Part shown: piece after piece, positions 28,821 through 55,260 of the stretch
Position numbering within the stretch: the first letter of the stretch is position 1
Layout: each line of letters starts with the position of its first letter
From: Romanomermis culicivorax
Taxonomy: Eukaryota > Nematoda > Enoplea > Mermithida > Mermithidae
Length of the DNA: 64,000 bases
NCBI GenBank assembly: GCA_963922205.1
Contig: CAWUHX010000009.1
Coordinates: forward strand, 496,001-560,000
Reading direction: 5' to 3'
The notes under the pieces: generated by a model
What the model was told of the DNA's origin: nothing
Databases searched by the model: none
Seen by the model: only the letters and a program-made list of their open reading frames with translations
Made by a program: the position numbers and the translations under genes

Positions 28821-28829
28821 ACAAAGAAA
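28821..28829. repeat. Target-site duplication, left copy
   Basis: ACAAAGAAA directly precedes the first base of the left TIR and is repeated exactly at 55252-55260 after the right TIR. Nine base pairs is the usual length for Mutator-like insertions. Confidence 0.95.
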
Positions 28830-29836: not shown

Positions 29837-32800
29837 ACGGTTAAAAATTTTTGTTTTCAAATTTTCACCTAGAGTAAAATTTTTGGTATGTTAACGTCGT
29901 GATGAGTAAATTAACTTCACATCATCATATTTTGATCCGGATCACGACTTTTGATCCGGATCAAAATTTTTTTTCTTCAAATTTTCACTTAGAGTAAAAT
30001 TTTTCGTATTTTACCGTCGTTAAGAGTAAATTAACATCACTTAATCAGATTTCTATCCATCACATAAACAGATTTTGATGTGGATCAATATTTCATCAAA
30101 ATTTTTTTCAAATTTCCACCTAGGGTTAAAGATTTTCGATGTTTGACGAATGTAAATTTTTTGTATTTTGAATTCGAATAAAATAAAAAACAGTTTTTGA
30201 ATAAAATAAAAAACGATTGAACCAACCGTTTAGTGATGTTGTTCTAAATTTGACGATTCTTCAAAATGCAACATCTGATAGAGCAGTTGTTGAACCATTC
30301 AGTGGTTATGTTGTTCCGTAATGACGGCACATTCTGCACGGATCCCTATGGGATTCAGATCCCGACGGGATCATTATTCGGTTGGTTCAATTACATAACT
30401 AAGTCAATTTTGCAAATGTATATAAAGAAGAGAAAAGCATTGAAACATCACGTCTACGGGATAACACAGAATAAATGCATGTGTATTAGTAGTGTTTTTA
30501 TTGGTTTAGTAGGCTTTTTTATAATAAATGCATGTGTATTAGGATTATTTTTATTGCAATTATGTGTACGGACCTGGATCACTATTTTTGATCAGGTTTG
30601 GATAAATATTAAAAATATTTTGAAAAAGAAAATTTAGCAAAACTATTGAACAACAGTGAAGTGAATTTCCGACTCCACTCAGCATCTGATAGAACAGTAG
30701 TTAAGCCATTTCCTGTTTTGTAGTTCGATTAAAATTGGATCCCTACGGGATTATTATTCGGTTGTTCAATTACATAACGAAGTCACATTTGCAGGTGTAT
30801 ATAAAGAAGAGAAAAGCATTGAAACATCACGTCGACGGGATGACAGAGAATAAATGCATGTGTATTTATTCTGTATAACCGGTTTTACATAGAATAAATT
30901 GTATTAGTATTCTTTTTATTGCAATTTTGTGTACTTATCTGGATCCGTGTATAATGCTAGTTGAGCAAACATTAATCACTTATTCCAAATGTTTACCCAG
31001 CCATGTTTTCCCAGCCATAAATGTTTACCCAGCCTTATATGTTTAGGCAGAAAATTTTTTTATGAATCTGGATCCGTGGAGTGGTTTATTTAAATTTTGT
31101 GTACGGATCTGTATCGTTATATGTGAATACGTAAAGTATTTTTATTCGTTAGCCATTTATTGTGCTTTATTATGCAATCAAGAGTCGGCATAGTTTTCTG
31201 GGCATTAAGTAAAGTAACAGGTTAGTTATTGGTTCCATGACTTTACATATATTTGTGTATAAAAAATTTAGGAGAAAATGTATTTGAATTTGTATTATGT
31301 TAAACTGCACCTAGGTTTGAAAAAAAAAGTTTACGGATCTGGATCCGTGTATATACTTTCTATATGTCTATGTTTAACTTAAAATGCAAAAGGATTGAAC
31401 AACCTCAAGGTTCGGTATTGCCGAAATCGATAAAATAAATTTCGATAGAACAGTCGTTTAATCATCAATTAAGTTTTTGCCTTTCTGGTTTGTTCAAATC
31501 CTAATGAGCCCATATTGGCACACATATATAAATTCGATGAAACTGTAGAAACATCAAATTGACGGGTTGATTCGAATATTTAACGTGTGTCTAAAACCAC
31601 ATCAAAAGTATGCAAGTGGAGTTACCAGATCAGTACATTTTGATCTGGCGCCATGTAAATATTTTTTATGAGCATTCATGAATGGGTTTTGAGGATGTGC
31701 AACTTAAACTGCAAAAGGATTGACTAACCTCAAGGTTCCATAATTCCATAATCTATCAAGTAAAACTTGAATAGTAGAACAAGTAAACATCGATAGAACA
31801 GTCGTTAAGTCATCGATGTAGTCCTTTTTGGTTAATCAAATCCTAAGAGCCAATATTGGCATATGTATATAAACATGAGGAAACTGTAGGAACATCAAAT
31901 TGACGGGTTGGTGCGAATTTTTAACGTGTGTCTAAAACCACATCAAAAGTAGGCAAGTGGAGTCACCAGATCAGTACATTTTGATCTGGCGCCATGTAAA
32001 TATTCAACTTCAACTGCAAAAGGATTGAATAACCTCAAGGTTCCGTAGTCGACGAAATAAATTTTGATAGAACAGTCGTTAAGTCATCGATTATCCATAG
32101 TCCACGAAATAAACTTTGATAGAATAGTTGTTAAGTCATCGAATTTGTCCTTTTGGTTAATCAAATCCTAATGAGCCAATATTGGCATATGTATATAAAC
32201 ATGAGGAAACTGTAGGAACATCAAATTGACGGGTTGGCGCGAATTTTTAACGTGTGTCTAAAACCACATCAAAAGTAAGCAAGTGCAGTCACCAGATCGA
32301 TACATTCTGTTGTCAATGCTGGAATACATTTGCAACCCGTCACTTTTATGTTTTATAAGAAAAGTTGAAAATATATACTTTAACTGCTATTTTGTAGTTA
32401 CGATAGAACAGTCGTTAAATCATTGATATAATGTTTAGCCTGTTCTATTTTTGTTTTTTTTTTTTTAATAAAATGGTAATTCAAATGGAAAATATTTTTC
32501 CAATAATTCAAACATATTAAAAATGTAAAAAAATATAAAAGAGTGCTCTAACAACAGTTTAATTCTATTAATCTGCTGTTAAACCACGCATACAAAACTG
32601 ATTCGAACTTTTTTATATATCGGTGTTTTTGTTTGAAACATAAAAACTACGGTTTGGAAGAGAAATAATGCATGTAGTCAGAAACCTCATAAAACGAGTT
32701 CGAATAGAGACGGATCATCTATTTTTCAATCAATCACAGGATTCCTGTTATGATTCAATTACCACATTTTATTTACATTTAAACAAACGACTATGTACAG

Positions 32801-33100
32801 TAAGAATAGCCTAAAAACCAAAAAAGATAAAAAAACCCAAATGGAAAAAAATAAAAGGGGTGCTCTAGCAACAGTTTAATTCTATTAATCTGTCGTTAGA
32901 CCACTCATACCAAATTAATTCGGAATTTTTTATATATCGGTGTTTTGGTATGAAACATAAAAACTACGGGTTGGAAGAGAATTAATGCATTACGGATCAT
33001 CTATTTTTCAGTCAATATCACTGGATTCCTGTTATGTACCAATTATGTACCAAATTTTATTTACATTTAAGCAAACAACTATGTACAGTAACAGAACAGT
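29837..33100. repeat. Left subterminal array of TATA-containing modules
   Basis: About eight diverged modules of roughly 250-400 bp follow one another. A typical module has a GATAGAACAGTCGTTAAGTC block, then a TATATAAA-like box (29707, 30419, 30798, 31525, 31866, 32192; weaker at 32614 and 32928), then GAAACATCA and ACGGG(T/A)TG, and often AATAAATGCATG or GTCTAAAACCACATC. Near 31630 and 31970 there is a CCAGATCA...TGATCTGG hairpin. Related blocks recur inverted at 51-54 kb. No protein is recognisable. The 123-codon frame at 30266-30637 spans module boundaries and is not supported. Confidence 0.8.
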
Positions 33101-33545
33101 AACAGAACAAAAGAAAACAACAAAAAAAAAGAATAACCAATAAACAAAAAAAGGATAAACCAAAAAAAGTAGGAAAAAAGCCATAAAAAAAAAGGTACTT
33201 AAAAAAACAAAAAAAAACTTAAAAAAAGAAAAACGAAAAAAAAATAAAAAAACGGAAAAATGTATACGGAAATACTATACAAACAATCAAAAATACAATA
33301 ACAATTTAACAATTATTTACAGTATGACGAGATAAAATTTATAAAGCGATAAAATTAAAACGAACAATAACGATATAATTTGAACAGTCAGTAACAAACG
33401 AGATAAAATTTATAAAGCGATAAAACTTAAACGAACAATAACAAGTGAGATAAAATTTTAAAAATTGCACGAGGTAAAACCGGTAAATAAGACACATAAA
33501 AAGAGACAAAAATTAACAAAACAACATTAAAAACAACAACAATAT
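33101..33545. other. A-rich spacer 3' of the transposase gene
   Basis: Strongly A-rich plus strand with repeated GAGATAAAATTTATAAAGCGATAAAA units (about 33322 and 33400). It lies just downstream of the leftward gene's stop and could hold its polyadenylation region. The other copy is at 36026-36470. Confidence 0.5.
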
Positions 33546-34075
33546 TTAACAATCTAGAAAATACAAGGCATATTGTAAAACATGCCCGTTTGCACTACCT
33601 TCTTCTACTCGTACCATTTTTTCCTGCAAATCGTCGCAAAGGTAATATTCCTTTGATGAAGTTCCCGGTCGAAGGACGATGCATGCGAAGTGGTTGGAGT
33701 TATAAACAATAACCGACAACAGATGATATCTGAAAAATGTAGAGTTGAAAAAAACAAAACACAACTCCAGTTTGTTTTTACCGTCGTCGATTAAACGTCA
33801 ACTCCGTCGGCAATGCAAAAACGTCATTGAATGGTGCGTTGCACAAATAAATTGGTGGCAACATGAGTAGCTGTTGCATCGTAAAGGTAGGCGCAAAATA
33901 AGTTCGTATACCCGGACATTTTGTCGACCCGTTCTCATGTCTTTGTCCACAAATTTGCTTATGTTTGCGAAGATGTTTATTCGCCAAATTCTCGATCGTT
34001 TTATCTTTAATGGTACTATAACATAAACGGTAAAGTCCAATTGGGAAAAACAATTTTCGCAAACCTCAAACGTAA
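33546..34075 (-). pseudogene. Duplicate copy of the USP-like terminal exons
   Basis: The same two exons as at 36471-37000: 34075-33782 and 33729-33546, joined by a 52-nt intron with GTAAAAAC donor and TTTTTCAG acceptor. The encoded segment resembles the C-terminal half of ubiquitin-specific proteases, with a His in an Asn-His-Phe context and an Asp-Asp pair after Tyr-Tyr-Leu-Cys. Relative to the second copy it lacks one base near 33881, so the reading frame feeding the 3' exon differs. It is listed as a duplicate because it abuts the artefactual duplication and 100-N gap. Confidence 0.65.
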
Positions 34076-34891
34076 CTTTTCACTTTAAAACAGAGTGATC
34101 CGTAACGGCTTGGTACGGATCACCTAAATTTCAGACTCAAAAATGTCGGAAATAGTTTGCCAACTTGTTCCACATACTCAATTGGATTAGGGGAACACGT
34201 TAAAATCAAAATTTTGAAATTTCAAAAATTTTTTAAATTTTTTAAATTTTTAACAAAATTTTAAAATTTTTCAAAATCGTCATAGAAATGTCCGGCGTAC
34301 TCAGAAACGTAGGAAAACATGTTTCCCCAACCCGGAACACAATTTTTCAATTCAATAATTGAGTGATCCGTGGCCGAGTGATCCGGGTTTTAGACATGCA
34401 TGTCTAAAACCCGGATTATTTTCTCACGGATCACCTGAATTTCCGACTCAAAAATGTCGAAAAAAGTTTGCCAACTAGTTCGACATACTAAACAGGGTCA
34501 GGGGAACACTTTAAAATCAAAATTTTAAAATTTTAAAATTTTTTAAAATTTTTTAAAATTTTTTAAAAAATTTTAAAATTTTTTAATTTCGTTATAGAAA
34601 TGTCCGCCGTACTCAGAAACGTAGGAAAACATGTTTCCCCAACCCGGAACACAATTTTTCAATTCAATAATTGAGTGATCCGTGGCCGAGTGATCCGGGT
34701 TTTAGACATGCATGTCTAAAACCCGGATTATTTTCTCACGGATCACCTGAATTTCCGACTCAAAAATGTCGAAAAAAGTTTGCCAACTAGTTCCACATAC
34801 TAAACAGGGTCAGGGGAACACTTTAAAATCAAAATTTTGAAATTTTAAAATTTTTTAAAATTTTTTAAAATTTTAAAAAAAATTTAAAATT

Positions 34892-34991
34892 NNNNNNNNN
34901 NNNNNNNNNNNNNNNNNNNNNNNNNNNNNNNNNNNNNNNNNNNNNNNNNNNNNNNNNNNNNNNNNNNNNNNNNNNNNNNNNNNNNNNNNNN
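34892..34991. other. Assembly gap of exactly 100 N
   Basis: 100 consecutive N, a conventional gap of unknown size. The flanking sequences are copies of each other. Confidence 0.99.
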
Positions 34992-37817
34992 ATAGAACAG
35001 TCGTTAAGTCATCGATTATCCATAGTCCACGAAATAAACTTTGATAGAATAGTTGTTAAGTCATCGAATTTGTCCTTTTGGTTAATCAAATCCTAATGAG
35101 CCAATATTGGCATATGTATATAAACATGAGGAAACTGTAGGAACATCAAATTGACGGGTTGGCGCGAATTTTTAACGTGTGTCTAAAACCACATCAAAAG
35201 TAAGCAAGTGCAGTCACCAGATCGATACATTCTGTTGTCAATGCTGGAATACATTTGCAACCCGTCACTTTTATGTTTTATAAGAAAAGTTGAAAATATA
35301 TACTTTAACTGCTATTTTGTAGTTACGATAGAACAGTCGTTAAATCATTGATATAATGTTTAGCCTGTTCTATTTTTGTTTTTTTTTTTTAATAAAATGG
35401 TAATTCAAATGGAAAATATTTTTCCAATAATTCAAACATATTAAAAATGTAAAAAAATATAAAAGAGTGCTCTAACAACAGTTTAATTCTATTAATCTGC
35501 TGTTAAACCACGCATACAAAACTGATTCGAACTTTTTTATATATCGGTGTTTTTGTTTGAAACATAAAAACTACGGTTTGGAAGAGAAATAATGCATGTA
35601 GTCAGAAAACCTCATAAAACGAGTTCGAATAGAGACGGATCATCTATTTTTCAATCAATCACAGGATTCCTGTTATGATTCAATTACCCACATTTTATTT
35701 ACATTTAAACAAACGACTATGTACAGTAAGAATAGCCTAAAAACCAAAAAAGATAAAAAAACCCAAATGGAAAAAAATAAAAGGGGTGCTCTAGCAACAG
35801 TTTAATTCTATTAATCTGTCGTTAGACCACTCATACCAATTAATTCGGAATTTTTTATATATCGGTGTTTTGGTATGAAACATAAAAACTACGGGTTGGA
35901 AGAGAATTAATGCATTACGGATCATCTATTTTTCAGTCAATATCACTGGATTCCTGTTATGTACCAATTATGTACCAAATTTTATTTACATTTAAGCAAA
36001 CAACTATGTACAGTAACAGAACAGTAACAGAACAAAAGAAAACAACAAAAAAAAAGAATAACCAATAAACAAAAAAAGGATAAACCAAAAAAAGTAGGAA
36101 AAAAGCCATAAAAAAAAAGGTACTTAAAAAAACAAAAAAAAACTTAAAAAAAGAAAAACGAAAAAAAAATAAAAAAACGGAAAAATGTATACGGAAATAC
36201 TATACAAACAATCAAAAATACAATAACAATTTAACAATTATTTACAGTATGACGAGATAAAATTTATAAAGCGATAAAATTAAAACGAACAATAACGATA
36301 TAATTTGAACAGTCAGTAACAAACGAGATAAAATTTATAAAGCGATAAAACTTAAACGAACAATAACAAGTGAGATAAAATTTTAAAAATTGCACGAGGT
36401 AAAACCGGTAAATAAGACACATAAAAAGAGACAAAAATTAACAAAACAACATTAAAAACAACAACAATATTTAACAATCTAGAAAATACAAGGCATATTG
36501 TAAAACATGCCCGTTTGCACTACCTTCTTCTACTCGTACCATTTTTTCCTGCAAATCGTCGCAAAGGTAATATTCCTTTGATGAAGTTCCCGGTCGAAGG
36601 ACGATGCATGCGAAGTGGTTGGAGTTATAAACAATAACCGACAACAGATGATATCTGAAAAATGTAGAGTTGAAAAAACAAAACACAACTCCAGTTTGTT
36701 TTTACCGTCGTCGATTAAACGTCAACTCCGTCGGCAATGCAAAAACGTCATTGAATGGTGCGTTGCACAAATAAATTGGTGGCAACATGAGTAGCTGTTG
36801 CATTCGTAAAGGTAGGCGCAAAATAAGTTCGTATACCCGGACATTTTGTCGACCCGTTCTCATGTCTTTGTCCACAAATTTGCTTATGTTTGCGAAGATG
36901 TTTATTCGCCAAATTCTCGATCGTTTTATCTTTAATGGTACTATAACATAAACGGTAAAGTCCAATTGGGAAAAACAATTTTCGCAAACCTCAAACGTAA
37001 CTTTTCACTTTAAAACAGAGTGATCCGTAACGGCTTGGTACGGATCACCTAAATTTCAGACTCAAAAATGTCGGAAATAGTTTGCCAACTTGTTCCACAT
37101 ACTCAATTGGATTAGGGGAACACGTTAAAATCAAAATTTTGAAATTTCAAAAATTTTTTAAATTTTTTAAATTTTTTAACAAAATTTTAAAATTTTTCAA
37201 AATCGTCATAGAAATGTCCGGCGTACTCAGAAACGTAGGAAAACATGTTTCCCCCAACCCGGAACACAATTTTTCAATTCAATAATTGAGTGATCCGTGG
37301 CCGAGTGATCCGGGTTTTAGACATGCATGTCTAAAACCCGGATTATTTTCTCACGGATCACCTGAATTTCCGACTCAAAAATGTCGAAAAAAGTTTGCCA
37401 ACTAGTTCGACATACTAAACAGGGTCAGGGGAACACTTTAAAATCAAAATTTTAAAATTTTAAAATTTTTTAAAATTTTTTAAAATTTTTTAAAAAATTT
37501 TAAAATTTTTTAATTTCGTTATAGAAATGTCCGCCGTACTCAGAAACGTAGGAAAACATGTTTCCCCAACCCGGAACACAATTTTTCAATTCAATAATTG
37601 AGTGATCCGTGGCCGAGTGATCCGGGTTTTAGACATGCATGTCTAAAACCCGGATTATTTTCTCACGGATCACCTGAATTTCCGACTCAAAAATGTCGAA
37701 AAAAGTTTGCCAACTAGTTCCACATACTAAACAGGGTCAGGGGAACACTTTAAAATCAAAATTTAAAAATTTTAAAATTTTTTTAAATTTTTTAAAATTT
37801 TAAAAAAAATTTAAAAT
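34992..37817. repeat. Second copy of the 2.8-kb duplication
   Basis: It starts ATAGAACAGTCGTTAAGTCA exactly as at 32067 and continues to about 37817. It is contiguous with the rest of the transposase gene and is therefore taken as the reference copy. Confidence 0.85.
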
Positions 37818-40800
37818 TTTTTAAAATCGTCATAGAAATGTCCGCCGTACTCAGAAACGTAGGAAAACAATATTTCCACTTCGAATTGGGTATGCAAACA
37901 CTTTTTAAAAAGAAAGAACTTTTAACAAGTATCTCAAAACCTAAAGAGATTAATTAACAAAAGACTTACAGTGCATAGCCGGTTATTTCTTGGGTGTTAA
38001 TCCGCATAGGGCATTTGGCTACGGAACACTCGCTGCGGCGTTGTAGAGTGTACAAGGTGTTGATATGGCTCAAGAAGAACTCGTCGGCGGCACCGTATAA
38101 ATCGATCTTTGTGCCCGAGCCGTCTTTGGTTATATTTTTCTCTTGTACCGCATTCTTTTGGTAGCGTATGTAATTCACCCACTCCAATGCAGCTTCCCCG
38201 AATTGATGTTCAAGTGCCAATGTCATGGATTTTTTTAACATTGACAATTCGATGGGTAGCTGTAAAGTATGAAATTAATTCATGAATGTTATGTAATATA
38301 GCATTTAAATTACCTGTCGCAAGAATTTTGGACAAAACTTAGCCTTAATATAGAAAGTTGTAAGGCCAGGATCGATTGTACAAGTATTCTGAAGTTGATA
38401 TTTTTGAACAGTCGGCGAATTTCGGAAGTAATGAATAACGAAGCAGTGCGTGCATTCCCAATAAAATTTGTTTTCGGGTTTTCTTCGATTATTTTTAAGC
38501 GAAAAATAAATATCGGAAATATTTTCGCAGTCGGGATGATACCACATTCGGCAATTTTCGGCAACTTGGGCATCGCATTCAAGCATGCGATTGACAGTTT
38601 TATCGACTTGACATTCGCAGAATGTCGGCTTCGCATCTTTCGATTTTAATGACACGTTCAATAAAGCATCGTCGTCGACATCGCTAAGGCGGTCTATTAT
38701 TTCCTCATCCTCTTCGGGTTCTAAATTCGAGAGGTTGTTAGTAATTAGCGTTGATAAGTCCATCTGAATGCAAAAATTAAATTAGTTCAACTAAAAAATA
38801 ATTCTAAAATAACTTAAATATTACTGGTGGTTTTTGTCGCATTTCCGGTATTAAATCCGTGTCTTCAATTTCATCGCAGGTTGGAATTTGCGAATCAATT
38901 ATAATTGTAGTCTCTCTTAAATAGAAAATGGTAATGTGATTAAAATAGGTCTGAATATGTAAGTTTACTGAAAGATGTTAGTGCAGATCCTATTTGTTAC
39001 ATGTTTACCTTTTTGTATTTAGAGCTACGGTGGTTTGCGATTGTGATTCCACCAAAACTGTCGCCTGGGAGTTGAAATTGGGCGGAGACGCATTACCGAT
39101 CTTATCGAATAATGATTCGCATTCTTCTTCTATGCGTCTGAATTGAATAATATGTAAATTAGATTTTTAACCTCAATGATAACAAGTATATTTTAACCAC
39201 TTACTCAAGATGTTTCGCATTTAATCGACCGGCATCGTAGGCACAATTTGTTGTTTCCTCTGAATGCCCGCGGCAATTCGTAAAATCGCTGTTATTTTTT
39301 TCAACGGCATCAGTTTGCGAATCGTAGGCACAAGTAGCTGTATCTACTTGAGTGTCGAAATGCAAATCTTTTGTCGCAGGCTTCTGAATTTTGACGTCGT
39401 CAACACAAGTAGCTGTTTCTACTTGTTTGTTAGCAGGCTGCCTGATTTCTACGTTCTTATAACAAGTAGCTGTATCTACTTGTGTGTTTGCGGGCTCGTC
39501 ATCCTCGTCGTCAAATTCAACATCCGTAATTTTCGGCTTTACGTTCGTAAAGTCGTCCTTGCGAGGTCGTTTGCGTCCCAACTTTGATTTACTTATTTTT
39601 CGTTTGTCCGCACGTCGCAAAGTTGTGATGTTTCTGGTTGCCTTCACGTTAACTGGTAAATTGCACGACAAACGAGCGGCAATCAAGTGGGCGCATGCCT
39701 TGTCGCCGCAACCGCAGCTGGTGGGGTTGAATCGAACTAGATACACCTGGCCGTTTTCGGTTACGTTGAAGCACTAAAAAAAATTTGCAAATTAATTTAA
39801 AAAAACATAAACTACATTATGAATTATTACTCTTGAAAGGGTGTCGTGGACCACCTTTCCATTTTCGACCAAAAATTGACCGATTCGGAAATTTGAATCG
39901 GCATCTCCGCGGTGATCTAATTTTGGCTCTTCCTTCTGCGGTTGTACGTATACTTGGCCAAATCGACAATATTGTAAAACTTTTCCGGGTTCGATTATAT
40001 CTCGTTTCGGCATTTCGTTGGCAGGCCTCAATGGAATGTGGTCGTTTAGCTTGAAATCCCCAAGTCCATATTTGGCGCGGTCATAATCGACGTTGTAATA
40101 ATTAAACAGAGTGTGGAAAGCGAGAACGGCCACGTCGATGGGCATTTCTCGCCAAGAATTCCAGCTCTTTAGGACTCTGTTGAAACTTTCGCTAGCGTTG
40201 GTCGTTATGCCTAAAATACGTATTTAAATTAATTAATGAAAACTAAAAATTATCAATTAAACAATATATATTTAAATTATTTAATGAAAACTATAAATTA
40301 TTAATTAAACAATATATATTTAAATTATTTAATTAAATTTATATATTATTTGCTTTAGTAAATTATAACTATAGGCTTTTGACGTATGAAAACATTACGT
40401 TTGTTAATATTTGAAATAATATCAAAATTAACATACCTGAGAAGCTGGAGTAAATTCCGATCGGTTCCAACACCCATTTTCCGCTTGTTCGAACAGCTGG
40501 GGCAATGGACGAAAAGTAATATTGTTTGAATTTTTCGGGCCATTTTTCGCTAAGTTCTTCAGCTTTTAATGCTGCTAGTTTCTCTGAGTCCGATTTTAGA
40601 ATCGAATACATATCGCTCAATATGTCAACACGCATGTCGTTATTTTTGGGAAACAAATCGGTAATTTTACGAGTAACGTTGTCGAGTAAATGTCGCCAAC
40701 AGTAAACGTGAATCGTGTTTGGCGTCAAATTTCGGAAATCAAATTCGCGATCGGTAATTAGAACGGTTTTGACGGTCCCATTCGTTATACGAATGGGTAG

Positions 40801-42159
40801 CTGTCGAAAAATTTTTTTTACGAAGCGGCAATGGTTTTCTCTGAATTTTTTCTCGTGTATAAGTACGGCGAGTGGGAAAACCGGTTGGCCGGTAAGGCTT
40901 TTTTGGCGATAAATTAATACTGACGCATAAAACTCGCCCAATTCAAACGTCGTGTCGTAAAGAACGACAAATGGCTCGTTTGGATATTCTGTTATTAATT
41001 CGTTGATTATTTCGGGCGTGTCCGGCAACATACAGGAAACCAAAAAGTCTTGAGGCGTTTGTTCAATGCTCAATATAAATTGGCGTTCATTCTCGCGAAT
41101 GAACGTGTTTAAATTGTATATGGCGTCCTTTGTCGGCCGAAATTTATTTTGAATAACGTATTTGAAGTTGGACATCTGAAAGAGTAATTTTAGTTTGTAA
41201 CACATTTATACTTTAAAACTATGACTCTTGTAAAAATTGTACTAGTTGACATATTTATTTAATTATATTTACTTGTTTTCGATCTCTGCCATGTACGATA
41301 GCTTCCAGTCCCGGTGGAGCAGGATTGTCTGTTCTAATTTTTTGGTACAATTGAGCAGCGGTAAGGTTCGGATCTCTTTGAAGTTCCACTTCTACGAGTT
41401 TCTTGATTACTGGAGCATTTCGAATAAAGACTCTGTCACTGTTCGAATTATAATGCTTTCGCTTGACGCCATATTTTTCATCGCCAACGTAGTGGACTAC
41501 TCCGACGTGTAGTTTTTCGTCCACTGGTGTTTTTATCTGCCGATATTCCATTCTTTTAAATTTCTTCTTTGCTTCGGAATTTCGATCGCAGGCGACAGCG
41601 TAGTGAGTAGCTGAATACTTTGGATTAGACCTCGGAAGTTTTCGAACTCCATCGTTTACCCAATTAAAACAATCGCAGAGAAAGGTTTCTATGAGGAAGT
41701 ACAAATATTATATAAGGTTAACATAAATAATGTAACCTGTTAATTACTATCTTCTTTGCTGGAGTAAGGAAACAAGTAAACGTCTCCTCCTTTTGGACAA
41801 GGTGACGGTTTGTTGATTAATCGTTCTGCGTTAGCCGAACCTTAAATATTAGTTACAGTTGGAAAACATACAATACAAACAACTTGTAATTAATTTTGGA
41901 TGTAAGTTTCACCAAAATAAACAATTAGCTTACCGATTAACTTATCCAAGTCCTTATATTCTAATCTGCATTGTCTGTTGGTCATAACGGGAATGGCACA
42001 TCCTGAATTAACTGGCGTATCTTCCGTTTCGGCAGATGTTGCATTTGCATTTGATTCGATCTTGGGCAGATCATCTTTAGGTTGATCAACTTGCGACGGT
42101 AGACTAGGAGTTAGCTTGAAATCGTCGTCGGAGTCGTATTGGTTGTCGTCCGAATACAT
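36471..42159 (-). CDS. MULE transposase with SWIM, PHD finger and USP-like tail
   Basis: Exons: 42159-41934, 41840-41748, 41688-41273, 41175-40437, 40210-39831, 39773-39205, 39137-39009, 38915-38825, 38763-38314, 38259-37970. All have GT/AG borders and are in phase (1,127 codons). Distal exons 37000-36706 and 36654-36471 add a USP-like tail ending at a TAA. MULE DDE core: Asp319 (YDTTF), Asp387 (ITDREF), the C404-H407 pair (CWRH) and probable Glu499 (TTNASESFN). SWIM finger CxCx4CxH at C638, C640, C645, H647. Then an acidic region with three QV(D/E)TATC repeats. PHD-like C4HC3 finger at about 930-988. The tail has a C..C pair and USP-style His and Asp boxes. The phase from exon 10 into the tail does not match, and a one-base shift is needed within it, so the tail is mutated or misassembled. 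The start is the first ATG after a CAGCTACTC motif. It presumably cuts or nicks the TIRs. Confidence 0.85.
37001..37969 (-). repeat. Transposase intron with about 300-bp repeats and terminal-motif palindromes
   Basis: This 969-bp intron holds three diverged copies of an about 300-bp unit. Two contain a perfect 36-bp palindrome, ATCCGGGTTTTAGACATG plus its complement, at 37308-37343 and 37620-37655. Each half contains CTAAAACCCGGAT, the iterated motif of the TIR. The same palindromes appear at 34381 and 34693 in the duplicated copy. The rest of the unit is AT-rich with AAAATTTT runs and GGAAAACATGTTTCCCC. Confidence 0.85.
39331..39482 (-). repeat. Three in-gene hairpin repeats encoding QV(D/E)TATC
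   Basis: Three near-identical 20-mers, CAAGTAGCTGTATCTACTTG (39331-39350), a T-for-A variant (39406-39425) and a third (39463-39482), have 7-bp perfect arms and 6-nt loops. On the coding strand each gives a QVDTATC or QVETATC heptapeptide inside the linker between SWIM and PHD parts. Each carries the element-wide CAGCTACTT motif. Confidence 0.85.
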
Positions 42160-43001
42160 TACTTGAGTAGCTGTGAGCGACTTTGTGAATGTCAATTATT
42201 GTTGACTTTGTGAGTAGCTGACAGACAACGAATTTACTATAAATTCTAATTGCTACGTCGTGGTCTATATCGACAGAGAATAATTTGGTTGGTGACGTGT
42301 GAGTAGCCGAGGTAAAAGCGGTAAATCGTTGAATTTTTAATTTCTATCGTAGACGGTGTGAGTAGCTGTGGATCCAATTACGTAATTGCGAAAAAATACA
42401 ATTTCATTCGTCGTTTGCTAAAGCAAAAAATACGAAAAATAAATAACAATCAATAATACCATAAGCATTAACTAAAATTACTTAATACATTAGGCTAACA
42501 CAAAAAGTAATATTAGTTGTCAATCTTACTTTTAGGCGTCATTCGTTGTTTCTTTGAAACGCAAGACTCGGGCAAAAATGCGTTGCGTTGCTTGCGCTGT
42601 GCGATGAAGAAAGCGCAATATCAATGTTACAGTAAACAGCTACCTGCAATTTGAAATGCAATATATGTACAAACATGAACACAATTTTATCTAACAGTCA
42701 CAATATTTATTTCACATGAACAATATGACGACATTTTATCTTCTTTAGGTTTTCAGGCCCAGATTTCACAATTCTATACATGACCCATCAATCCAACCCA
42801 AGATTCGTAACATTCTTCATTGCGCAACTTCCTGTCCATTGTCCACATGGAATGAGTGACCAGTAAACATTACAGTAGGAAATGAATGTTTACCTTTATG
42901 CACAAACATGGACTTTGCCCCTAAGATGCACCTTAATAGAATAGTGTATCATTCTTGCTTGAAAGAAGAAGTACTCTACAATTTTTTTTCACTCACTCGA
43001 A
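42160..43001. promoter_or_regulatory. Divergent intergenic region with clustered CAGCTACT motifs
   Basis: This region separates the leftward transposase from the rightward arginine-rich gene and must hold both promoters. On the transposase sense strand CAGCTACTC occurs at 42165-42173, 42212-42220 and 42360-42368, with a variant (CGGCTACTC) at 42301-42309. Facing right, CAGCTACCT is at 42637-42645. No clear TATA box was assigned. Confidence 0.6.
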
Positions 43002-43824
43002 ATGCCTCGCATTCATGTATCAATAAGCATTGGGAGACATCGAAGAAGAGTGGACAATGCCCGGCGTCATCCACGTCGTTTGCGTAGACGGGCCAGACAG
43101 CTACTCAACGGCAATCAAGATCATGTCGTTGGTGTAGCTAATCCAATTCCGGAATTTCCCCAACGCGAACCCCCGCAAGACGAACAGCTACTCAACGGCA
43201 ATGAAGACCCTGTCGTTGATATGGCTAATCCGATTCCAGAAATTGACGATGATGATTTGCCATTGATTTTCATAAGAGCACCCCGAAGAGGTAAATAGAT
43301 TCCACATTGTAACCATAATCATTTGAAAAATATGAAAAAGGAAGATCATTATGTAAACAGAAGGATAATTATGCTGTATAAAGGAGATACATTGAAAGTT
43401 AATAATTGTCCATAATTTTTTTTCCAATGAATGTTCAGCGCGACGAGGACAACAACGTCGGCGACGCAACAATAGACAAATTGGGGTTAGGCGTCGGAAC
43501 ATGAGACGTGGTGCAAACCCTCCACGCCGCGAAGAAAGTCCAGATAATCTACAGATCGACGAACTTCATCACGTTAATGTTGATCAATTCAACGATGTAA
43601 TTATGAATGGAATTGGCCAAGGGTTTGCCGAAGTAGAAGATCCGCCACCTATATTCGAAAACATGGATGTCGATGCGGACATAAACATTGGCCAACTTCG
43701 AGGAGCACGCCGAGTATGCTGGCGAATTGGGGTAAGTTTATACAACAGAGTACGTTGGTGGAATTCCAATGGTTGGGTTCCTTGCCCGCGTAGGTCCTCC
43801 TTCAATACTAGTCTAAATTTTTAA
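43002..43824 (+). CDS. Arginine-rich small protein with internal repeat
   Basis: Not matched to a known family. Exons 43002-43290 and 43439-43824 (148-nt intron, GTAAAT donor, TTCAG acceptor) give 224 aa. The N-terminal 35 residues and the segment just after the intron are strongly basic (runs of Arg, RRGQQRRRR), suggesting nucleic-acid binding. Between them a 33-residue unit is repeated twice, each starting QLLNGN and ending ANPIPE, followed by an Asp-rich stretch. A strong GTAAGTTT donor at 43732 could instead join to an acceptor at 43920, replacing the last 30 residues with a 33-residue Cys-rich tail that stops at 44022; both forms are in phase. Its place in the element suggests an accessory transposition protein. 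Confidence 0.65.
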
Positions 43825-44022
43825 TATTAATGTAGAGTAATGTTTATTATTGTGTTTTGTAAGTACTGTGAGTTTTCCATTTTATTGTGATGTGTGCATG
43901 TGTTCATTGTTTACTTCTAGTCACAATGTATTCGATGTGGTTTTTTCCAAATGCTACTTAGGTTGCTATGCTCAAAAGCCTACTGCTGTAGTACAAATTT
44001 AACCCGAAACATAACTGAATAA

Positions 44023-45215
44023 TTTTATAATTTGAAACGTAACGTAGAAATTTGAATGTTTTAACAATTTCAATTTATAGATACATGTAAGTTTTTGTTT
44101 TGGAAGAAACCTTGTTTTGGAAGAAACCACTCTTTGTATATATGTAATGTTAAAATGGTTTAATTTGTGCACGTTAATTTCAATTTTAAGTTTTGTTAAC
44201 ATTTATTTTATTTCTTTATGTTTATGTTTGGTTTTTATGAATTTTTTTGTCAAATTAAGTTTTACTTTTTTCCCAATTTGTTAATGTTTTGTTTATTGCT
44301 TTTTTTTAATTTTGTTAGGTTTATATTACGCACATTCATAAAAAAAATTAAAACCAAAAAAAATAAAAAAAAAAAATAACAAAAAAAAATTTTAAAATTA
44401 AAAAAACACAAAAAAATTCTTTAATTTCCTAATTCTGTCTCTATCCGTCTATGTTTTCTAGTCATGGTTGTGTACAATTTTCTTTATATATTTGTTTTAT
44501 CTTTTGCACGGTTTTTTTTTAGTTTTTTAAGTTTTGCACATGGCCGTGCGTAACCTCAGGGTCCACGTCCCCACGGCTGGGCACTGTTGCATTTAAATTT
44601 GCAATAGTGGCAAATGGAGGAGTTGAGTAGAAAAATACTGCTCGGTTTTGAAATATTTTACCGACATTCATTATAAGTGACTAAAACTTTTCATTGTTGG
44701 TTCATGGTAACGCGAAAGTGCATAAAACTATAATATGCATTTTGTGTTATGACAAACAAGTTATATCCGAATCCTGAAAATAAAAGAATAAGATGAATAG
44801 TTTACTGTAAATCCATCACTCGCAATTCGCAAAACTTTTTTCAAAAACTCCGTTCCAATTCAACGCCGCCCCCCGCCACCAAATCATCATCGCTTCGCTG
44901 GTGCAAAACGGGAAGCCGAGATCAAGTGTCAAAGCTTATCGCAACCTTCAGAACAATAGGTAACCATTAATTATGACGGGGGGGATATTGGCGATTTACG
45001 TAACTTTTTTAGACAACGTTGTGAAAACGTGTTACACAGCTACTCGTTTTACAACAACCAACCTTTACGTACGATTTATTATTTCTTTCGTTGATTGTTG
45101 GCGAAGCAACTTTTTGTACAGCTACTCACGTTTACAACGATAAACGTGAGGCCTCATTTTATTTATTTATCGTTGAACAAGCGGTCGTGTTTCCTGTTTC
45201 TTCACGACAACTAAT
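44023..45215 (+). other. Spacer and helicase promoter region
   Basis: AT-rich with an A-rich run at 44340-44410 and a GC-richer block at 44860-44960 without an assignable gene. Just before the helicase start are two sense-oriented CAGCTACTC motifs at 45037-45045 and 45119-45127, mirroring the cluster before the transposase. Confidence 0.5.
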
Positions 45216-48200
45216 ATGTCCTATTCGCACTCACATATCGACGAGCCTGCGCCGTTTGAGGTAACTTGTCTTTCAAAATCAAACATTAGTGATAATTCTA
45301 AGTTGTATAATTATTTGTTAGCCTCCGATCAACGCCGAAGTTGAGGAGGACTTCGATGAATTAGACGCCGTAGAAGTACACTACGAAGAATTCCATGAAC
45401 CTCAAGAACCAATAAAACATATTGCGCCGAATACTGTGTCGTACGACCACAATAATGTGAAATGCAGTTTTGATTACGAAACTGGATTCAGCGCTTTTGT
45501 GGAGCGGACAGTCGACGAATCAGACGAATTTGAAAAACCATGTCAGAAAGCTGCGTAAGTCCTTCGTTATTTTTTTCCGTTCGTGATCTTGTCGGTCTAC
45601 AGTTCCACGCATACCTGTAGGACCTACGATCAGTCAGGGGGGGGGGGGTAAATGCGAAATTTTGGGAGACCTCCGCTCCGACCAGTTGGTGGGGGGGGGG
45701 TTGGAAAAAGTCGAAATTTTCCCCAAAAAAGGCCAAAAAACATACACTTTTTGACAAATTTTTTTAATTTTTTCCCAACTGGGGGGGGGGAAATGATTTT
45801 GGGTATAGGGTTGGCCGAGTTGGGGGAGGGGTCCCCCCCAGCCCCCCCCCAAGTACAGGTATGGTTACACATTGTATTTACCGCAAAATTCCCCCAAAAA
45901 AACCCTGTTTTATTGTTGATTATTTACAACTGATTTTAGGTATCATTCGCCGAACGAATATTACAATACTTTTTTACACTGGATAAATCAACAAGCCGAC
46001 GATAATGATAAAATGTTGTTGGCGTTCAGCAAACACTTTCAGTCAATCGAGTACTTGCTAGATCCGCCTTCATACGCCACAGGAAAATTGGACTTCAGCG
46101 GGCTGCTACCCAATTGTGAGTTGATATGTCATTTTGACCTCATTGCAATTCAAATCCAACATATATCTTTAGTCGTTCGTCCGAATCAAAAGATTCAATT
46201 GACGATTTTGGAGCTTGGAGGTGATGGCAGATGGTACGAAACTGATGCGTATTGCGACGCAACGCTACTCAATGTACCCGATAGTGAGTAATCGAGTAGA
46301 ATAAAATTTAATAAAATTTATTACTTGCAATTGTTTTTAGATAGAAGCGCCAATTTAGTCGTCGACATCCTCAAGTTTCGCATAAACAAGTTGCAAAAGT
46401 GGATGGCATCGAAACATGCACCATTCGATACTGATGCCGAAGATCAAGACGATGCAGAAGACCTGGAATGGGACCAAGATGCCGCCAATGCCCTAGGAAA
46501 ATTTGTCGAATCAAGTCGCCAACCGGGCCGCAAAATGTGCAACATCCTTTGGAAAGGAGATGATACGGCGATGCAAAGGTATAGGTGTATAAAGCATTCA
46601 TATTTATTTTTTGGGTTCGTAGACCTTCAAATTTTTTGTCGTTGAGCATCACCGTTTATTTAGAACACTAAACTGCCTCAACACCATAAAGCACTTGAGC
46701 ATGGTGGACTCCAACACCGCAATGTGGCGGTTAAAGTTGAAAGAAAAAGAGATGGGCACTAAGTATATCGATGAAGCCTCCGGAATGCCGCTCCGACCTC
46801 TCAATGAAACAGCACCACAGATTAGCGAACCCATTCGTGATCTATTGATTCGTGGAAAACATCGTGATCCCACAGCTACTTGTCGATATCGCGATATAGG
46901 CGCAAATCGCAACGACCTGTTTGACTCTTGCCGTCTGAACATGTCTCAAAAAGAGGCCGTTCGCCTTTCAGAATCGAATTTTATTTCGATAATACAGGTG
47001 ATAATATCAAGATATTTATATCTTTCAACTCTTACGCTTAACTTGTTTGTACAGGGCCCGCCTGGAACGGGAAAAACATCCACAGCTACTTGTATTATTA
47101 GACGAGCATTAGCCCTTGATCAGGGTCAAAAAATATTGATAACGGCGCCTTCAAACACTGCCGTGGACAATATCATACGAGCACTTTTGAAAAGTGTTGA
47201 AAATGCAGGCAATGAAAAAGAACGCGTTCAAAATAACATCGTGCGCCTTACCAGCCGAGCTAAGTACTACCAGCCGGACGATGATATTCGACCCTACACA
47301 ATGCGAGCCGTAGCAATGCAGCCGGAAAATTTGGCATTTTGGTAAAGATATCTAAACTTTATAATACATAATTTGTTTCCGTCTGTTTAACATTGTAATT
47401 GTTTCTATATTTTCAACTTCAGCAAAACAAACTGGAGGCAATGCATCGAAATGAAGTATGGTGAACACTCACGAAAGACACCACTCACGAAAGACGAAGA
47501 CAAAAAAGCAGATGCGTGCCTATTCAAATACGAAAAACAGCTACTCAGGTGCAAATATCGTATAATCTTTACGACTTGCAATGGAGCAGCCGATGCCCGC
47601 CTAAAAGCATGCTTTTTCAAACTGGTATTGATCGACGAAGCAGCCCAGGATACTGAACCAACCACCTTGATTCCGGTTACAAGACTTCACATAAGTGGAA
47701 GGGTAATGAACTGTTAGATATTTCCCTTCCAAGTACTATGTTTTCGTTCATTTTCGCTCTTTCAGGTAACCCTTTTAGGCGATCCTTGCCAATTAGGGCC
47801 GTGTGTGACTTCCAAAGAAGCGGAACGAAAAGGATTCAGTCATACCCTGTTTGAGCGGTTACACAACATGAACATGCCGTACAAATTATTGAACCAACAA
47901 TATCGAATGCACCCGACAATTGGAAGCATAGTCAGTAGTTTGACGTACGAAAATCGGGTACAAAATTGTACCACCAAAGGTAACAATATGACTCAGTATA
48001 GGGACAATGTTTAAAATGATTTGAGTACTAGTAAATTTTATCGTTTCAACATTTGTGCTTATAGAACAACGCATGCTGCAACTTCCGAAATCATTTCCGA
48101 CAATGATGACTGGATATCCCGTAGCTTGGATTCATATAGCGAAAGAAGAATGCGCCGACGATAATTCGAGATCACTGCAAAATATAGGCGAAGCAATTGC

Positions 48201-50788
48201 ATGTGTCAATCTAGCGGCTTCCTTAATTGGACAATACAAAATGCGCTGCGACAACATAGTTATTATAACGTCGTACAGCGCACAGGTTAAACAACTACGA
48301 GCAAAAGTAGAGGAAGCATGCAAAGCCATTTTAAATGGCACATATTTGCAGAATCACAGCTACTCACGTAGCGAATTATTCGTTGAAGATCTACGCAAAA
48401 TTCGAATTGGAACAGTAGACGGGTTTCAGGTGGTAAATTATGATTACTACTTAACTCACTATACATTACTTTAGGGTTTTTAACAGGGTCAAGAATCCGA
48501 CATTGTCATCTACGACATCGTGCGATCAAATCAATATCTGACCATCGGATTCTTGGAAAACTTTAAACGTTTAAATGTCGCAATAAGCCGTGCGCGATGC
48601 TTGCTTATTGTCGTTGGCAACGCTACTATGTTTCCATCGTTGGAAGCAGGAAAGTGTTTCATTGTAAACAAAGATCAAATCAACACGGAGGGCCGACGAC
48701 ATTGGCGTAAATTGTTAGAATGGTAGGCAAAACTGATCAATTTATAACCTTATTTCAATTATAGTATATTGCAGTGCAGTATGTTTTAGTGCATTTTAGT
48801 GTAGTTATTTTTCTAAACTTTGATGTTTAGGTGTATTAACCATCGCTGCATACTCGATGCCGTTGGCAAAGAAACATCGCTTCCATTTGAAGCCACTTGG
48901 CCCTGCATAGGCGACCAACACGAATTGGTGTTGGTTAGAAGTAAGACAGATTGAGTTATTTTAAGCATATACTAATTTTAAAGTTGCATTTATATCTCTG
49001 TGTTTAGAAATGATGTCGACGCAATATGCACTGACCGTAGGCATACGCGAACATCTAGTAAACGAATTTCGTCACGTCGTTATGCCTATTTTGGTCCAAA
49101 ATGGTTGTCACGTCTACATGGCTCCCGTTTCCACCTATGTTGCCGGTTGGGCTGAAATTGTTGTGTCAGATGTACAACAGAGCCTCCACAACCACGTTGT
49201 CAACATAATTACGAACAATCTGCGAAATTACGACGAAATGCGAGTCTGTAAGTACTATTAAATGGGACATGTTATAGGATTTCCATTACACTAACAATTT
49301 TAACAGCTACAAGAAATTGCTTCGTAAACCCGTCGGAAGCTAATCGGGGTGTCGCTTGTCGATCTTGGAAATCGCAAATTTTCAAGAACGATTTACAGCT
49401 ACCCAATTTTATGGACAACTGGCATTATCGGGATGCAAATTACGCCGTATCGCACGGCATAAAAGGTATTTATTTGCTTTTTTATGGATATGTTTTCTGT
49501 TAGATAGATTTATTAGATTCTTCATAATCAATATTATCTTTTCTGAGTCCTGAAACATTTTCGCCGGACATTTCTATGACAATTTTGAAAAAATTTTAAG
49601 ATTTTTTAAAAAATTTTAAAAAATTTTAAAATTTTAAAATTTTGATTTTAAAGTGTTCCCCTGACCCTGTTTAGTATGTCGAACTAGTTGGCAAACTTTT
49701 TTCGACATTTTTGAGTCGGAAATTCAGGTGATCCGTGAGAAAATAATCCGGGTTTTAGACATGCATGTCTAAAACCCGGATCACTCGGCCACGGATCACT
49801 CAATTATTGAAGTGAAAAATTGTGTTCCGGGTTGGGGAAACATGTTTTCCTACGTTTCTGAGTACGGCGGACATTTCTATAACGAAATTAAAAAATTTTA
49901 AAATTTTTTAAAAAATTTTAAAAAATTTTAAAATATTTTAAAATTTTAAAATTTTGATTTTAAAGTGTTCCCCTGACCCTGTTTAGTATGTCGAACTAGT
50001 TGGCAAACTTTTTTCGACATTTTTGAGTCGGGAAATTCAGGTGATCCGTGAGAAAATAATCCGGGTTTTAGACATGCATGTCTAAAACCCGGATCACTCG
50101 GCCACGGATCACTCAATTTTTGGAGTGAAAAATTGTGTTCTGGGTTGGGGAAACATGTTTTCCTACGTTTGTGAGTACGGCGGACATTTCTATGACGATT
50201 TTAAAAAATTTTAAAATTTTTTAAAAAATTTAAAAAAATTTAAAAAAATTTTAAAATTTCAAAATTTTGATTTTAAAGTGTTCCCCTGACCCTGTTTAGT
50301 ATGTGGAACAAGTTGGCAATCTTTTTCCGACATTTTTATGTCTGAAATTTGGGTGATCCGGGAGTATCGGATCCGGGTATTCTAAAAACTCATTATAATT
50401 TATTTCAGTTCTTTCGCGACACATTGTTGTGTGGCATATACATTTACGCCACGATATTTTCCGATTGATGGTGGGGCAATTAACCAAACCGCCCTATTCA
50501 ATTTATGACGAATATAAGAAACACCATATTCGGTTGATAACCGAAGACGGACAAATCGCCACGGTGTACGAATTTATGTGCGGATATTTGACGACGACGC
50601 GAGGTTACAGGCCGAAAGCAGATTGGAGCCTCGAAACGGCTTACAATTATTTCGTCCACTGCTTGCGGGACCTATTGCTCAAATGGGAAAGAATGAACAA
50701 AAATCAACAGGCGAGGAAGGAGGCCGATGATTTGGCCAATATAGCCCGTCAAAGGGGTATACACGTCCCGATGGACGTATTCTATTAG
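45216..50788 (+). CDS. Superfamily 1 (UPF1-type) helicase, intact, 1,135 aa
   Basis: Fifteen exons: 45216-45260, 45322-45554, 45940-46115, 46173-46283, 46341-46578, 46664-46997, 47055-47341, 47423-47702, 47766-47979, 48065-48429, 48487-48722, 48831-48940, 49008-49247, 49307-49465, 50409-50788. All borders are GT/AG and the sum (3,408 nt) is in phase to a TAG. Motifs: Walker A GPPGTGKT 380-387; Ia APSNTAVDN 410-418; II DEAA 546-549; III GDPCQ 573-577; QYRMHP 613-618; V TVDGFQGQE 756-764; VI RLNVAISRAR 789-798. Every hallmark of an ATP-driven 5'-3' SF1B helicase is present. The first 267 and last 290 residues match nothing I know. It may unwind transposon ends or RNA during movement. A G-rich insertion lies in intron 2, and palindrome repeats fill the last intron. 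Confidence 0.93.
45610..45863. mobile_element. Small G-tract insertion with TIRs in helicase intron 2
   Basis: CATACCTGTA (45610-45619) is matched by TACAGGTATG (45854-45863). The 254 bp between hold G runs of about ten or more at 45638, 45690 and 45781 and C runs near 45835-45850, very unlike the AT-rich surroundings. It lies wholly within the intron 45555-45939, so coding is not affected. It looks like a MITE; no target duplication was resolved. Confidence 0.6.
49466..50408 (+). repeat. Helicase last intron with mirror copies of the 300-bp repeat
   Basis: This 943-bp intron carries three copies, in inverted orientation, of the about 300-bp unit found in the transposase intron. Perfect 36-bp palindromes of the terminal motif lie at 49746-49781 and 50059-50094; the third unit (about 50355) is diverged. 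Donor and acceptor sites remain functional-looking. Confidence 0.88.
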
Positions 50789-51287
50789 TTTTTGTATTTT
50801 TCCGTATTTTTTTGTTATTGTTTTTGTTACTAGTCTACCGGTGTTCCGGGTGCCGTTTTCGTTTGTATTCCACTTTTTGTATTAGTTTTTGTACATACTA
50901 GTCCAACGCGATTTTTCTTTCAAGTAAATTAAGTTTCACATTCTTATTTACGGAGGGAAACTGTAGGGTTGATAGTGTAAATAGTAATAGGTAAACTACA
51001 TATATGAATAATATCATACAAATATAATTCACAGTTTACTGAATTGGAATTTTTCAACTTGAGGACGTTAGTATTTCAGTGATTCATTATATTCTAACTA
51101 ATAATGTACGAATCAGATGCTGAACAAACTTATTTTTATACAACAATGTATTTGTATTTGCCCATGATCGGATATTACGGATCACACTATAACTGAAAAG
51201 GCACATGCAAAATAATTCTTCCAACCCGTAGAAATAATGTTCCATTCGAATGCAGCAAATAGATATACCGAACATGAATATTGTTGT
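50789..51287. other. Helicase 3' region
   Basis: AT-rich DNA after the helicase stop. Near 51223 begins the first right-hand module with CAACCCGTAGAAATAATG. No other gene was seen. Confidence 0.5.
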
Positions 51288-53393
51288 CAAACAGTAGAAC
51301 AACCCTCGGTTCTGTTAATCTGCAGTTAAACCACGCCAATTATCAAATCACAATTAATGAATTCTATTATTCTGCAGTTAAATCACACCTATTATAAAAG
51401 CGCAGGTCCTCAAGTTTGGGTGGACTACTGTTTTCTTTAAAATTCCTTTAAACCTATTTTTATACAACATTCACAACCATCTATAAACACATGCTAAATA
51501 GTTTTTTCAACCCGTAGAAATAATGTTCCATTCAAATTAAGCAGATTCATATAACAAACGTGAATAAAACAACCAACAGTAGGTCGGGCTCTGTTAATCT
51601 GTCGTTAAACCACTTTTCCTCGTCGAAAAGTGAAAAGCAGGTTTCAAATGCTAAGGGCGAAAAACGAAAAGCAGGTTCGACTACTGTTTTTTAAAATTTG
51701 TTGCATTGCAACCTATTTTTTGCATTGCGACCTATTGTGATAAGACGGATCACACTACAAACCAAATACTCATGCTGAACTTTTGTTCCAACCCGTAGAA
51801 ATAATGTTTCACTTGAATCCAGTGGATATATCATGTCATGGACAGAAATGCTAACAAGATAATTGGACCAGTCTGTTAATCTGTCGTTAGACCACACTCA
51901 GCATATAGCTGTAAGTGGCTTGTAAGGCCAAAGACTAAGCTAAAATTGGCTGGTCCAAATTATCTTCTTTTCTTCTTTTCACTTTTAAAACTTTTTTTCT
52001 TAATTTTTTTCCATTTCAAACCATATTCCGAATAAGACGGATCACACTACAATGTCGGATAAGACGGATCACTCTACAAACATAATACTCATGCTAACCT
52101 TTGATTCCAACCCGTAGAAATAATGTTTCACTAATTTCAGGTGGATATATTATGTCGTCAACATGAATGCTAAAAAGGTAATTGGACCAGTCTATTAATC
52201 TGCCATTGGACCACTCTGAATGAAAAGCTGTAATCGGCTTGTAAGGCCCAAAAGCCACAGACAGGTGCACTGGTCCAAATTACCTTTCTTTTCTCAATTT
52301 TCTTCTTCTTTTAAAATTCTTTTTCCATTTCAAACCATATTCCGAATAAGACGGATCACACTACAATGTCGGATAAGACGGATCACTCTACGAATATAAT
52401 ACTCATGCTAACCTTTGATTCCAACCCGTAGAAATAATGTTTCACTAATTTCAGGTGGATATATTATGTTGTCGACATGAATGCTAAAAAGGTAATTGGA
52501 CCAGTCTATTAATCTGCCATTAGACCACTCTCAATGAAAAGCTGTAAGCGGCTTGTAAGGCCCAACAGCAAAAAGCAAGTTCACTGGTCCAAATTACCTT
52601 TTTTCTTTGTTATTGTGTTATGTGAATGTCGGATCATACGGATCACACTACAATGTCGGATCAGACCAATCATACTACAAACCAAAAACACATGCTACAT
52701 TTATGTTCCAACCCGTAGATATAATGTTTCACTCAAATCCAGTGGATACATATAGTCCTCATCGGGAATAATGGCAAGGCAGTAGAACAGCCGTATTGAT
52801 CTGTTGTTAGACCACAATTTATTGAGCAACCAAATGCTCTTCCTTCGGTTGACTACTGTTTTGCTAAAACTGTATTTTGATTTGATCCAAAATACTATAT
52901 CAGTGAGGTGAAATCCAGAAAACGACAATTATATGGATCCATATGACATACATTTATTCTTAATCGACCCGTCGGCATGATGTTTCAATGCTTTTCTCTT
53001 CTTTATATACACCTGCAAACGAGACTACATTATGTAATTGAACATACCGAACAAGGATTCCGTATGAATCCCATTTTGATCCCACAACAAAGCAGGAAAT
53101 GGCTTAACTACTGTTCTATCAGATGTTGAACATCTTCTAGATGTTATTCGGGATAATGTCACGGTTGTTGTTCAATCGTTTTACAAAATATTCCTTTTCA
53201 AAATTTTTTTCAAACTTTCCAAATAAACTTACAATACTTTTTTCTAACCCGTACAAATAATGTTTCAATGAATTGCAGGAGATACATATAGCAAAAATGA
53301 ATTAAATTGTCAAACAGTAGAACACTAGGATGATTAATCTGAAGTTAAACCACACCTAAATGACGAACAATCTTGGCTGGACTACTGTTTTTG
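51288..53393 (+). repeat. Right subterminal array of hairpin modules
   Basis: Seven hairpin modules with outer arms at: 51288-51297/51425-51434; 51575-51586/51678-51688; 51856-51871/51950-51966; 52175-52190/52270-52286; 52489-52504/52584-52600; 52774-52785/52853-52864; 53311-53320/53382-53393. Each contains TTAATCTG(C/T) and GTTA(A/G)ACCAC in the 5' half. Most are preceded by CAACCCGTAGAAATAATGTT. The third to fifth share arms (A)AGATAATTGGACCAG or AAGGTAATTGGACCAG with matching changes on the other arm. They could be structured RNAs or protein-binding sites; no coding frames fit. Confidence 0.8.
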
Positions 53394-55251: not shown

Positions 55252-55260
55252 ACAAAGAAA
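55252..55260. repeat. Target-site duplication, right copy
   Basis: ACAAAGAAA, identical to 28821-28829. Confidence 0.95.

Follow-up and report, generated by a model that had tools for sequence, protein, structure and literature searches.

What does a short DNA word do that recurs, in one orientation relative to the genes, through all three genes of a transposon? The question is raised by a stretch of 64,000 nucleotides (nt) from the mermithid nematode Romanomermis culicivorax (assembly GCA_963922205.1, contig CAWUHX010000009.1, positions 496,001 to 560,000 of the forward strand; hereafter the window), which carries a Mutator-like element with genes for a transposase, an arginine-rich protein and a helicase. 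A preliminary description, made from the sequence, had listed copies of the word CAGCTACT and of its variant CAGCTACC in these genes. Our results support the notion that the constraint on this word acts on nucleic acid, and we give a probability of about 0.4 to the statement, taken as a whole, that the word is a self-address of the element carried in its mature mRNAs, with an element-encoded protein as its likely reader. All counts come from this one 64-kb window, read on both strands, and from one copy of the element.

The word exceeds chance by far, as had been claimed for both of its forms. CAGCTACT has 17 exact matches in the window where 0.62 would be expected, and CAGCTACC has four where 0.52 would be expected; over 100 shuffles of the window per word, the maximum was 3 in each case. 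The 21 exact copies all lie within 33866-49403, inside the transposon, and the 37.6 kb of flank contains no exact CAGCTACT or CAGCTACC, which agrees with the absence from the flank reported earlier. The plus-strand coordinates first listed were exact, and those on the minus strand were all one base too low. The 17 exact matches were borne out, except that 33866 and 36790 are one distinct site, because they correspond to each other in a 2,925-bp segment that occurs twice.

With the site in the duplicated segment counted once, there are 20 distinct sites: 14 in the spliced coding sequence of the three genes, all of which carry the motif, five in presumed 5' leaders (within 281 bp upstream of the transposase start codon and 255 bp upstream of that of the helicase) and one intergenic, at 42637. 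The trio 39333/39408/39465 and the pair 43098/43185 sit in short internal repeats and, since each of these groups counts once, about 17 independent sites are left. All copies had been said to lie on the coding strand. By gene models and presumed leaders this holds for 19 of the 20 sites, and 42637 would be sense only if it belonged to a leader of the arginine-rich gene. No antisense copy was found within the three modelled coding sequences and no copy within the modelled introns (4.1 kb); with 42637 taken as leader, the element holds none outside the modelled mRNAs. The site at 38255 straddles a 3' splice site in the DNA, and the exon junction rebuilds the identical word in the modelled mRNA.

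That the motif falls in all three frames and in leaders was confirmed, the coding sites being distributed 7/6/1 among the frames. In the modelled mRNAs, 16 copies of CAGCTACT stand against 0.08 expected from a second-order Markov model, and the next unrelated 8-mer reaches 5 copies. When synonymous codons of the modelled coding sequence were shuffled 2,000 times, CAGCTACT appeared 0.30 times on average and at most 4 times, against 11 observed, and CAGCTAC(C/T) appeared 0.60 times on average and again at most 4 times, against 14 observed. When the order of the codons was shuffled, the same 14 stood against 0.15 on average and 3 at most. Given the three frames, the presumed leaders and the synonymous shuffles that fall short, the motif constraint therefore acts at the nucleic-acid level, as had been proposed; chance, composition and an origin in protein repeats are rejected on account of the frames, leaders and shuffles.

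Alignment of the 20 sites, from 20 nt upstream to position 29 downstream, defined an 11-mer, (A)CAGCTAC(T/C)(C/T)(A/G), with no flanking position beyond the 11 nt above the mark of 0.6 bits. The first position is A in 18 of 20 sites (otherwise T), CAGCTAC is invariant, and the last three positions are T in 16 and C in 4, C in 14 and T in 6, and A in 13 and G in 7; after CAGCTACT itself, the next base is C or T in 17/17 copies. The final two positions do not vary independently (CA 13, TG 6, CG 1, TA 0; Fisher P 1.8e-4, or 2.1e-3 with repeats collapsed). The decay of CpG in a CAGCTACTCG ancestor was considered as the source of this CA/TG tail and fails as an explanation, since the modelled mRNAs have more CpG than expected (observed/expected 1.11-1.56). 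There is also a degenerate copy, CGGCTACT, at 42302. Words with one mismatch number 41 in the flank versus 5 in the element; of the 41, CCGCTACC accounts for 14, and near 6.2 kb several of these lie in an 18-bp tandem run. We draw no conclusion from these counts. An inverted CAAGTAG, read from the sequence, lies upstream of the trio 39333-39465, and no hairpin was seen by eye, without a systematic test, at the other motif sites. A text search for CAGCUACU gave, among the matches listed, no paper evidently describing an RNA motif.

Is the word selected in RNA or in DNA? The roles first suggested for it were a mixture of both; its confinement to exons and the behaviour of a contrasting non-coding word favour the RNA roles on that list, with a DNA role as a rival. 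Words with three mismatches occur 241 times in exon sense versus 235 times in exon antisense, and exact words 20 versus 0 times (42637 as leader). Exon sense holds 241 of the 1044 three-mismatch words of the whole element, a share of 0.23 that gives 2.8e-10 when raised to the 15th power. The strand of the sites, their confinement to modelled exons and presumed leaders and their presence in every gene thus favour RNA. The contrasting word, CCGGGTTTTAG, is present 10 times per strand, in the element ends and in non-coding tandem arrays, with no copy at modelled exon coordinates and none in the flank. The repeat of about 312 bp in these arrays has the same sense relative to each of the two genes whose introns it occupies, those of the transposase and the helicase, and one array recurs in the duplicated segment. 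Its palindromes of CCGGGTTTTAG are found in the inverted ends as well. CCGGGTTTTAG is likely a DNA-binding site, and CAGCTACT has the opposite distribution, which favours RNA. Selection at the RNA level is, in our view, the more probable case.

In the reading that we favour, the 11-mer would be a nucleic-acid address selected in the mature mRNAs of all three transposon genes. A protein would read the word as single-stranded RNA and might in this way distinguish the transcripts of the element, with an effect on their export, stability or translation or as a shield against silencing. Most likely this reader would be a product of the element itself; the best candidate, on grounds of position and composition only, is the 215-amino-acid, arginine-rich and lysine-free protein. 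We see about an even chance that a protein reader exists, and a somewhat smaller one that it is encoded by the element. The fullest version, in which a cut-and-paste transposon tags its own mRNAs by an exon-borne 11-nt word and the arginine-rich protein thereby tells own from host RNA, is more tentative again.

Several points weigh against this reading. The exons and leaders are models from the sequence, the leaders being presumed. Sense words with three mismatches stand at 241 to 62 between exon and intron, so that for 17 sites the confinement to exons amounts to about P 0.02, which is weak. The predicted accessibility of the sites in RNA (unpaired probability) is unremarkable. Known arginine-rich RNA-binding motifs mostly bind structured RNA rather than a linear word. 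For the arginine-rich protein of the element, neither a homologue at E 0.001 nor a Pfam match was found. The helicase also gives a mixed picture when compared with the best 120 of its 5463 homologues. In favour of the reading, the Ala, Thr and Cys that the 47083 copy encodes behind Walker A are shared by 2, 4 and 0 of the 120, which mostly have Leu/Val/Ile, Val and Glu/Gln/Ser/Ala there, and the mean share over the 11 alignable motif residues is 0.17, against 0.35 at 402 other positions. Against it, Thr 389, in the same copy, matches 105/120. This comparison is only suggestive, because a block permutation over the 11 residues gave P 0.11, which is not significant. Finally, the three gene models are all directed outward from about 42.5 kb, the transposase on the minus strand and the arginine-rich protein and helicase on the plus strand, so that "sense" is also "outward" and a polar mark in DNA would fit the strand pattern too.

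Since "sense" is inseparable from "outward", a role at the DNA level stays a serious rival: an element protein might bind the duplex word against silencing, in the manner of VANC, or the word might be a polar outward signal. Indeed, the sites are all on the minus strand up to 42.4 kb and all on the plus strand beyond 42.6 kb, and VANC21 of Arabidopsis VANDAL elements binds words of the same orientation in its own Mutator-like element. Most VANC words, however, are located in tandem repeats outside coding sequence, and probes from exons were bound far less (PMC5735166, PMC10398659). Here the word is found only in modelled exons and presumed leaders, plus one intergenic site, and the DNA-type distribution belongs to the separate word CCGGGTTTTAG. 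We regard a DNA mark as less likely than the self-address and as the best of the alternatives.

It is less likely still that an RNA-binding protein of the host recognises the word to the benefit of the element, for instance in germline expression or export. The same sequence evidence would serve as for the element's self-address, and the element need not encode the reader. The tail UACUCA looks similar to a STAR/GLD-1 site. However, the invariant CAGC presumably falls outside that site, 6/20 sites end in TTG or CTG, and no copy is present in the 37.6 kb of flank, though host exons there may be few. A target of a small RNA (microRNA or piRNA), kept because tissue-restricted repression would benefit the element, appears improbable. 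An invariant 7-base core with pyrimidine/purine changes tolerated to one side would suit it, but the T at position 8 in 16/20 sites would misfit a simple G-U tolerance, no antisense word occurs in the coding mRNAs, and the 64-kb window gave no Rfam match. An exonic splicing enhancer would also be sense, exonic and in any frame; it was set aside as very improbable, as the positions are not near junctions (the median distance from a site to a junction is 135 nt, against 92 nt when every position is taken, and 94% of random sets were as close or closer) and many exons are without the word. A by-product of repeated peptides or local duplication, without nucleic-acid function, is hardly credible: five sites do lie in two short internal repeats and Thr-Ala-Thr-Cys is found five times, but about 17 independent sites are left, in three frames and leaders, and synonymous shuffles fail to produce them.

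To our knowledge, the self-marking of transposon products is known in few cases, of which VANC with its DNA word is the clearest in the Mutator superfamily. If the self-address in mRNA is true, a word kept in coding exons would be a second solution to self-marking, at the RNA level, beside VANC; a compact target and a candidate reader would both be found inside one 26 kb element, and selection on nucleic acid would be strong enough to mould the proteins encoded by the same sequence. The two systems have in common the Mutator superfamily and a short, exact, repeated word in a single orientation, and VANC is element-encoded (PMC5735166, PMC10398659). They differ in that the word is here dispersed over exons and presumed leaders (14/20 sites coding, 5 leader, 1 intergenic, 0 intron). 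No link of the arginine-rich protein, without homologue at E 0.001, to VANC was found, and VANC is set beside it by description. The reading that we favour is also reminiscent of the retroviral Rev/RRE export systems, in that an arginine-rich protein encoded by the element would bind RNA of that element; the RRE is one structured RNA, whereas here there are about 20 linear copies with no structural signal and no conservation outside the 11 nt. DNA uptake sequences, Chi and KOPS are short exact words that run through bacterial genes in any frame, some with fixed polarity. These act in bacterial DNA, in contrast to a word in the modelled exons and presumed leaders of a eukaryotic transposon. Pattern matches in viral contigs (80) and in prokaryote genomes (32) included no relative, and in a paired-motif scan of viral contigs (at least 120 stretches), among the matches listed, the three richest were tandem arrays and the remaining stretches had at most 2 full-pattern copies each.

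The element (Table 1) is a large Mutator-like transposon with three genes. Its target-site duplication is perfect, 9 bp long with the sequence ACAAAGAAA, within the 8-11 bp expected of the Mutator superfamily (MULE), and its terminal inverted repeats, of about 1 kb each, are also a feature of that superfamily. The 9-bp duplication and inverted ends are shared with Rehavkus and animal Mutator-like elements, as may be a PHD finger, for which the match here is weak, and Rehavkus has a minisatellite where the present element has tandem repeats (PMC6446971). The table entry there gives Rehavkus ends of 26-400 bp and one open reading frame; the present element, compared by description only, carries three genes, one of them for an SF1 helicase, between ends of about 1 kb. 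In a literature search for a like element or system, Rehavkus appeared, among the matches listed, in PMC6446971 only. The 2,925-bp segment is present in two copies that flank an N gap of the assembly (32067-37869), with the transposase tail in each, and the duplication is perhaps an assembly artefact. A single-base indel adjoining the motif distinguishes the copies, and the downstream frame is intact in one of them only.

Table 1. Features of the transposon and sites of the motif, in window coordinates.
Feature	Position	Strand	Remark
Whole transposon	28830..55251	.	26,422 bp; inverted ends and flanking 9-bp direct repeats
Left target-site duplication	28821..28829	.	ACAAAGAAA, direct repeat
Right target-site duplication	55252..55260	.	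ACAAAGAAA, direct repeat
Left terminal inverted repeat	28830..29855	+	520 nt at 99% and 473 nt at 96%
Right terminal inverted repeat	54226..55251	-	pairs with left end
Transposase gene model	33546..42159	-	10 exons and 2-exon tail (tail twice in assembly); PHD-like finger
Arginine-rich protein gene model	43002..43794	+	2 exons, 215 amino acids; 3' end uncertain
SF1 (UPF1/IGHMBP2-type) helicase gene model	45216..50788	+	15 exons, 1135 amino acids
312-bp tandem array	37040..37877	-	transposase intron; carries CCGGGTTTTAG
313-bp tandem array	49581..50364	+	last helicase intron; same sequence
Motif site	33866..33873	-	coding, frame 0; other copy at 36790
Motif site	36790..36797	-	second copy of 33866
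Motif site CAGCTACC	38255..38262	-	across splice acceptor
Motif site	39333..39340	-	frame 1, Thr-Ala-Thr-Cys
Motif site	39408..39415	-	frame 1, Thr-Ala-Thr-Cys
Motif site	39465..39472	-	frame 1, Thr-Ala-Thr-Cys
Motif site CAGCTACC	40796..40803	-	frame 0
Motif site	41606..41613	-	frame 1
Motif site	42166..42173	-	presumed transposase leader
Motif site	42213..42220	-	presumed transposase leader
Motif site	42361..42368	-	presumed transposase leader
Motif site CAGCTACC	42637..42644	+	between divergent genes, outside every gene model
Motif site	43098..43105	+	frame 0
Motif site	43185..43192	+	frame 0
Motif site	45037..45044	+	presumed helicase leader
Motif site	45119..45126	+	presumed helicase leader
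Motif site	46873..46880	+	frame 1
Motif site	47083..47090	+	frame 1, Thr-Ala-Thr-Cys; directly behind helicase Walker A
Motif site	47538..47545	+	frame 0
Motif site	48357..48364	+	frame 2
Motif site CAGCTACC	49396..49403	+	frame 0

The gene models were built as a splice-consistent reading of the sequence. Among 4917 candidates, the transposase has a single detectable homologue, P0001, at 30% identity over 99% of the searched region, and P0001 is annotated with MULE (PF10551), C48 and PHD domains. At E 0.5 the transposase sequence itself does not match the Pfam MULE model, and it gives a weak match to PHD, with E 4.7e-4 for the exon (under the curated cut-off) and E 0.052 for the whole protein. 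The transposase may also contain a SWIM-like pattern, CxC...CxH, as well as a C48-like tail, both read by eye and without a Pfam match. The arginine-rich protein contains 39 Arg and 0 Lys in its 215 residues, with two dense Arg stretches.

Some minor observations concern the base composition and repeats of the region. CpG is over-represented in the element, with observed/expected values of 1.11-1.56 in the modelled mRNAs and 1.70 at the left end, and of 0.93-0.95 in the flanks. Subterminal repeats of about 314 bp (51739-52607 and nearby) contain a recurring CCAACCCGTAG, with 7 copies in the element and 0 in the flank. In the left flank, a long AAGAAA-type simple repeat (15706-16479) yields long spurious reading frames. 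No tRNA was found in the window. The second helicase intron (45555-45939) differs from the other introns read in its long runs of G and of C, and is possibly a separate small insertion.

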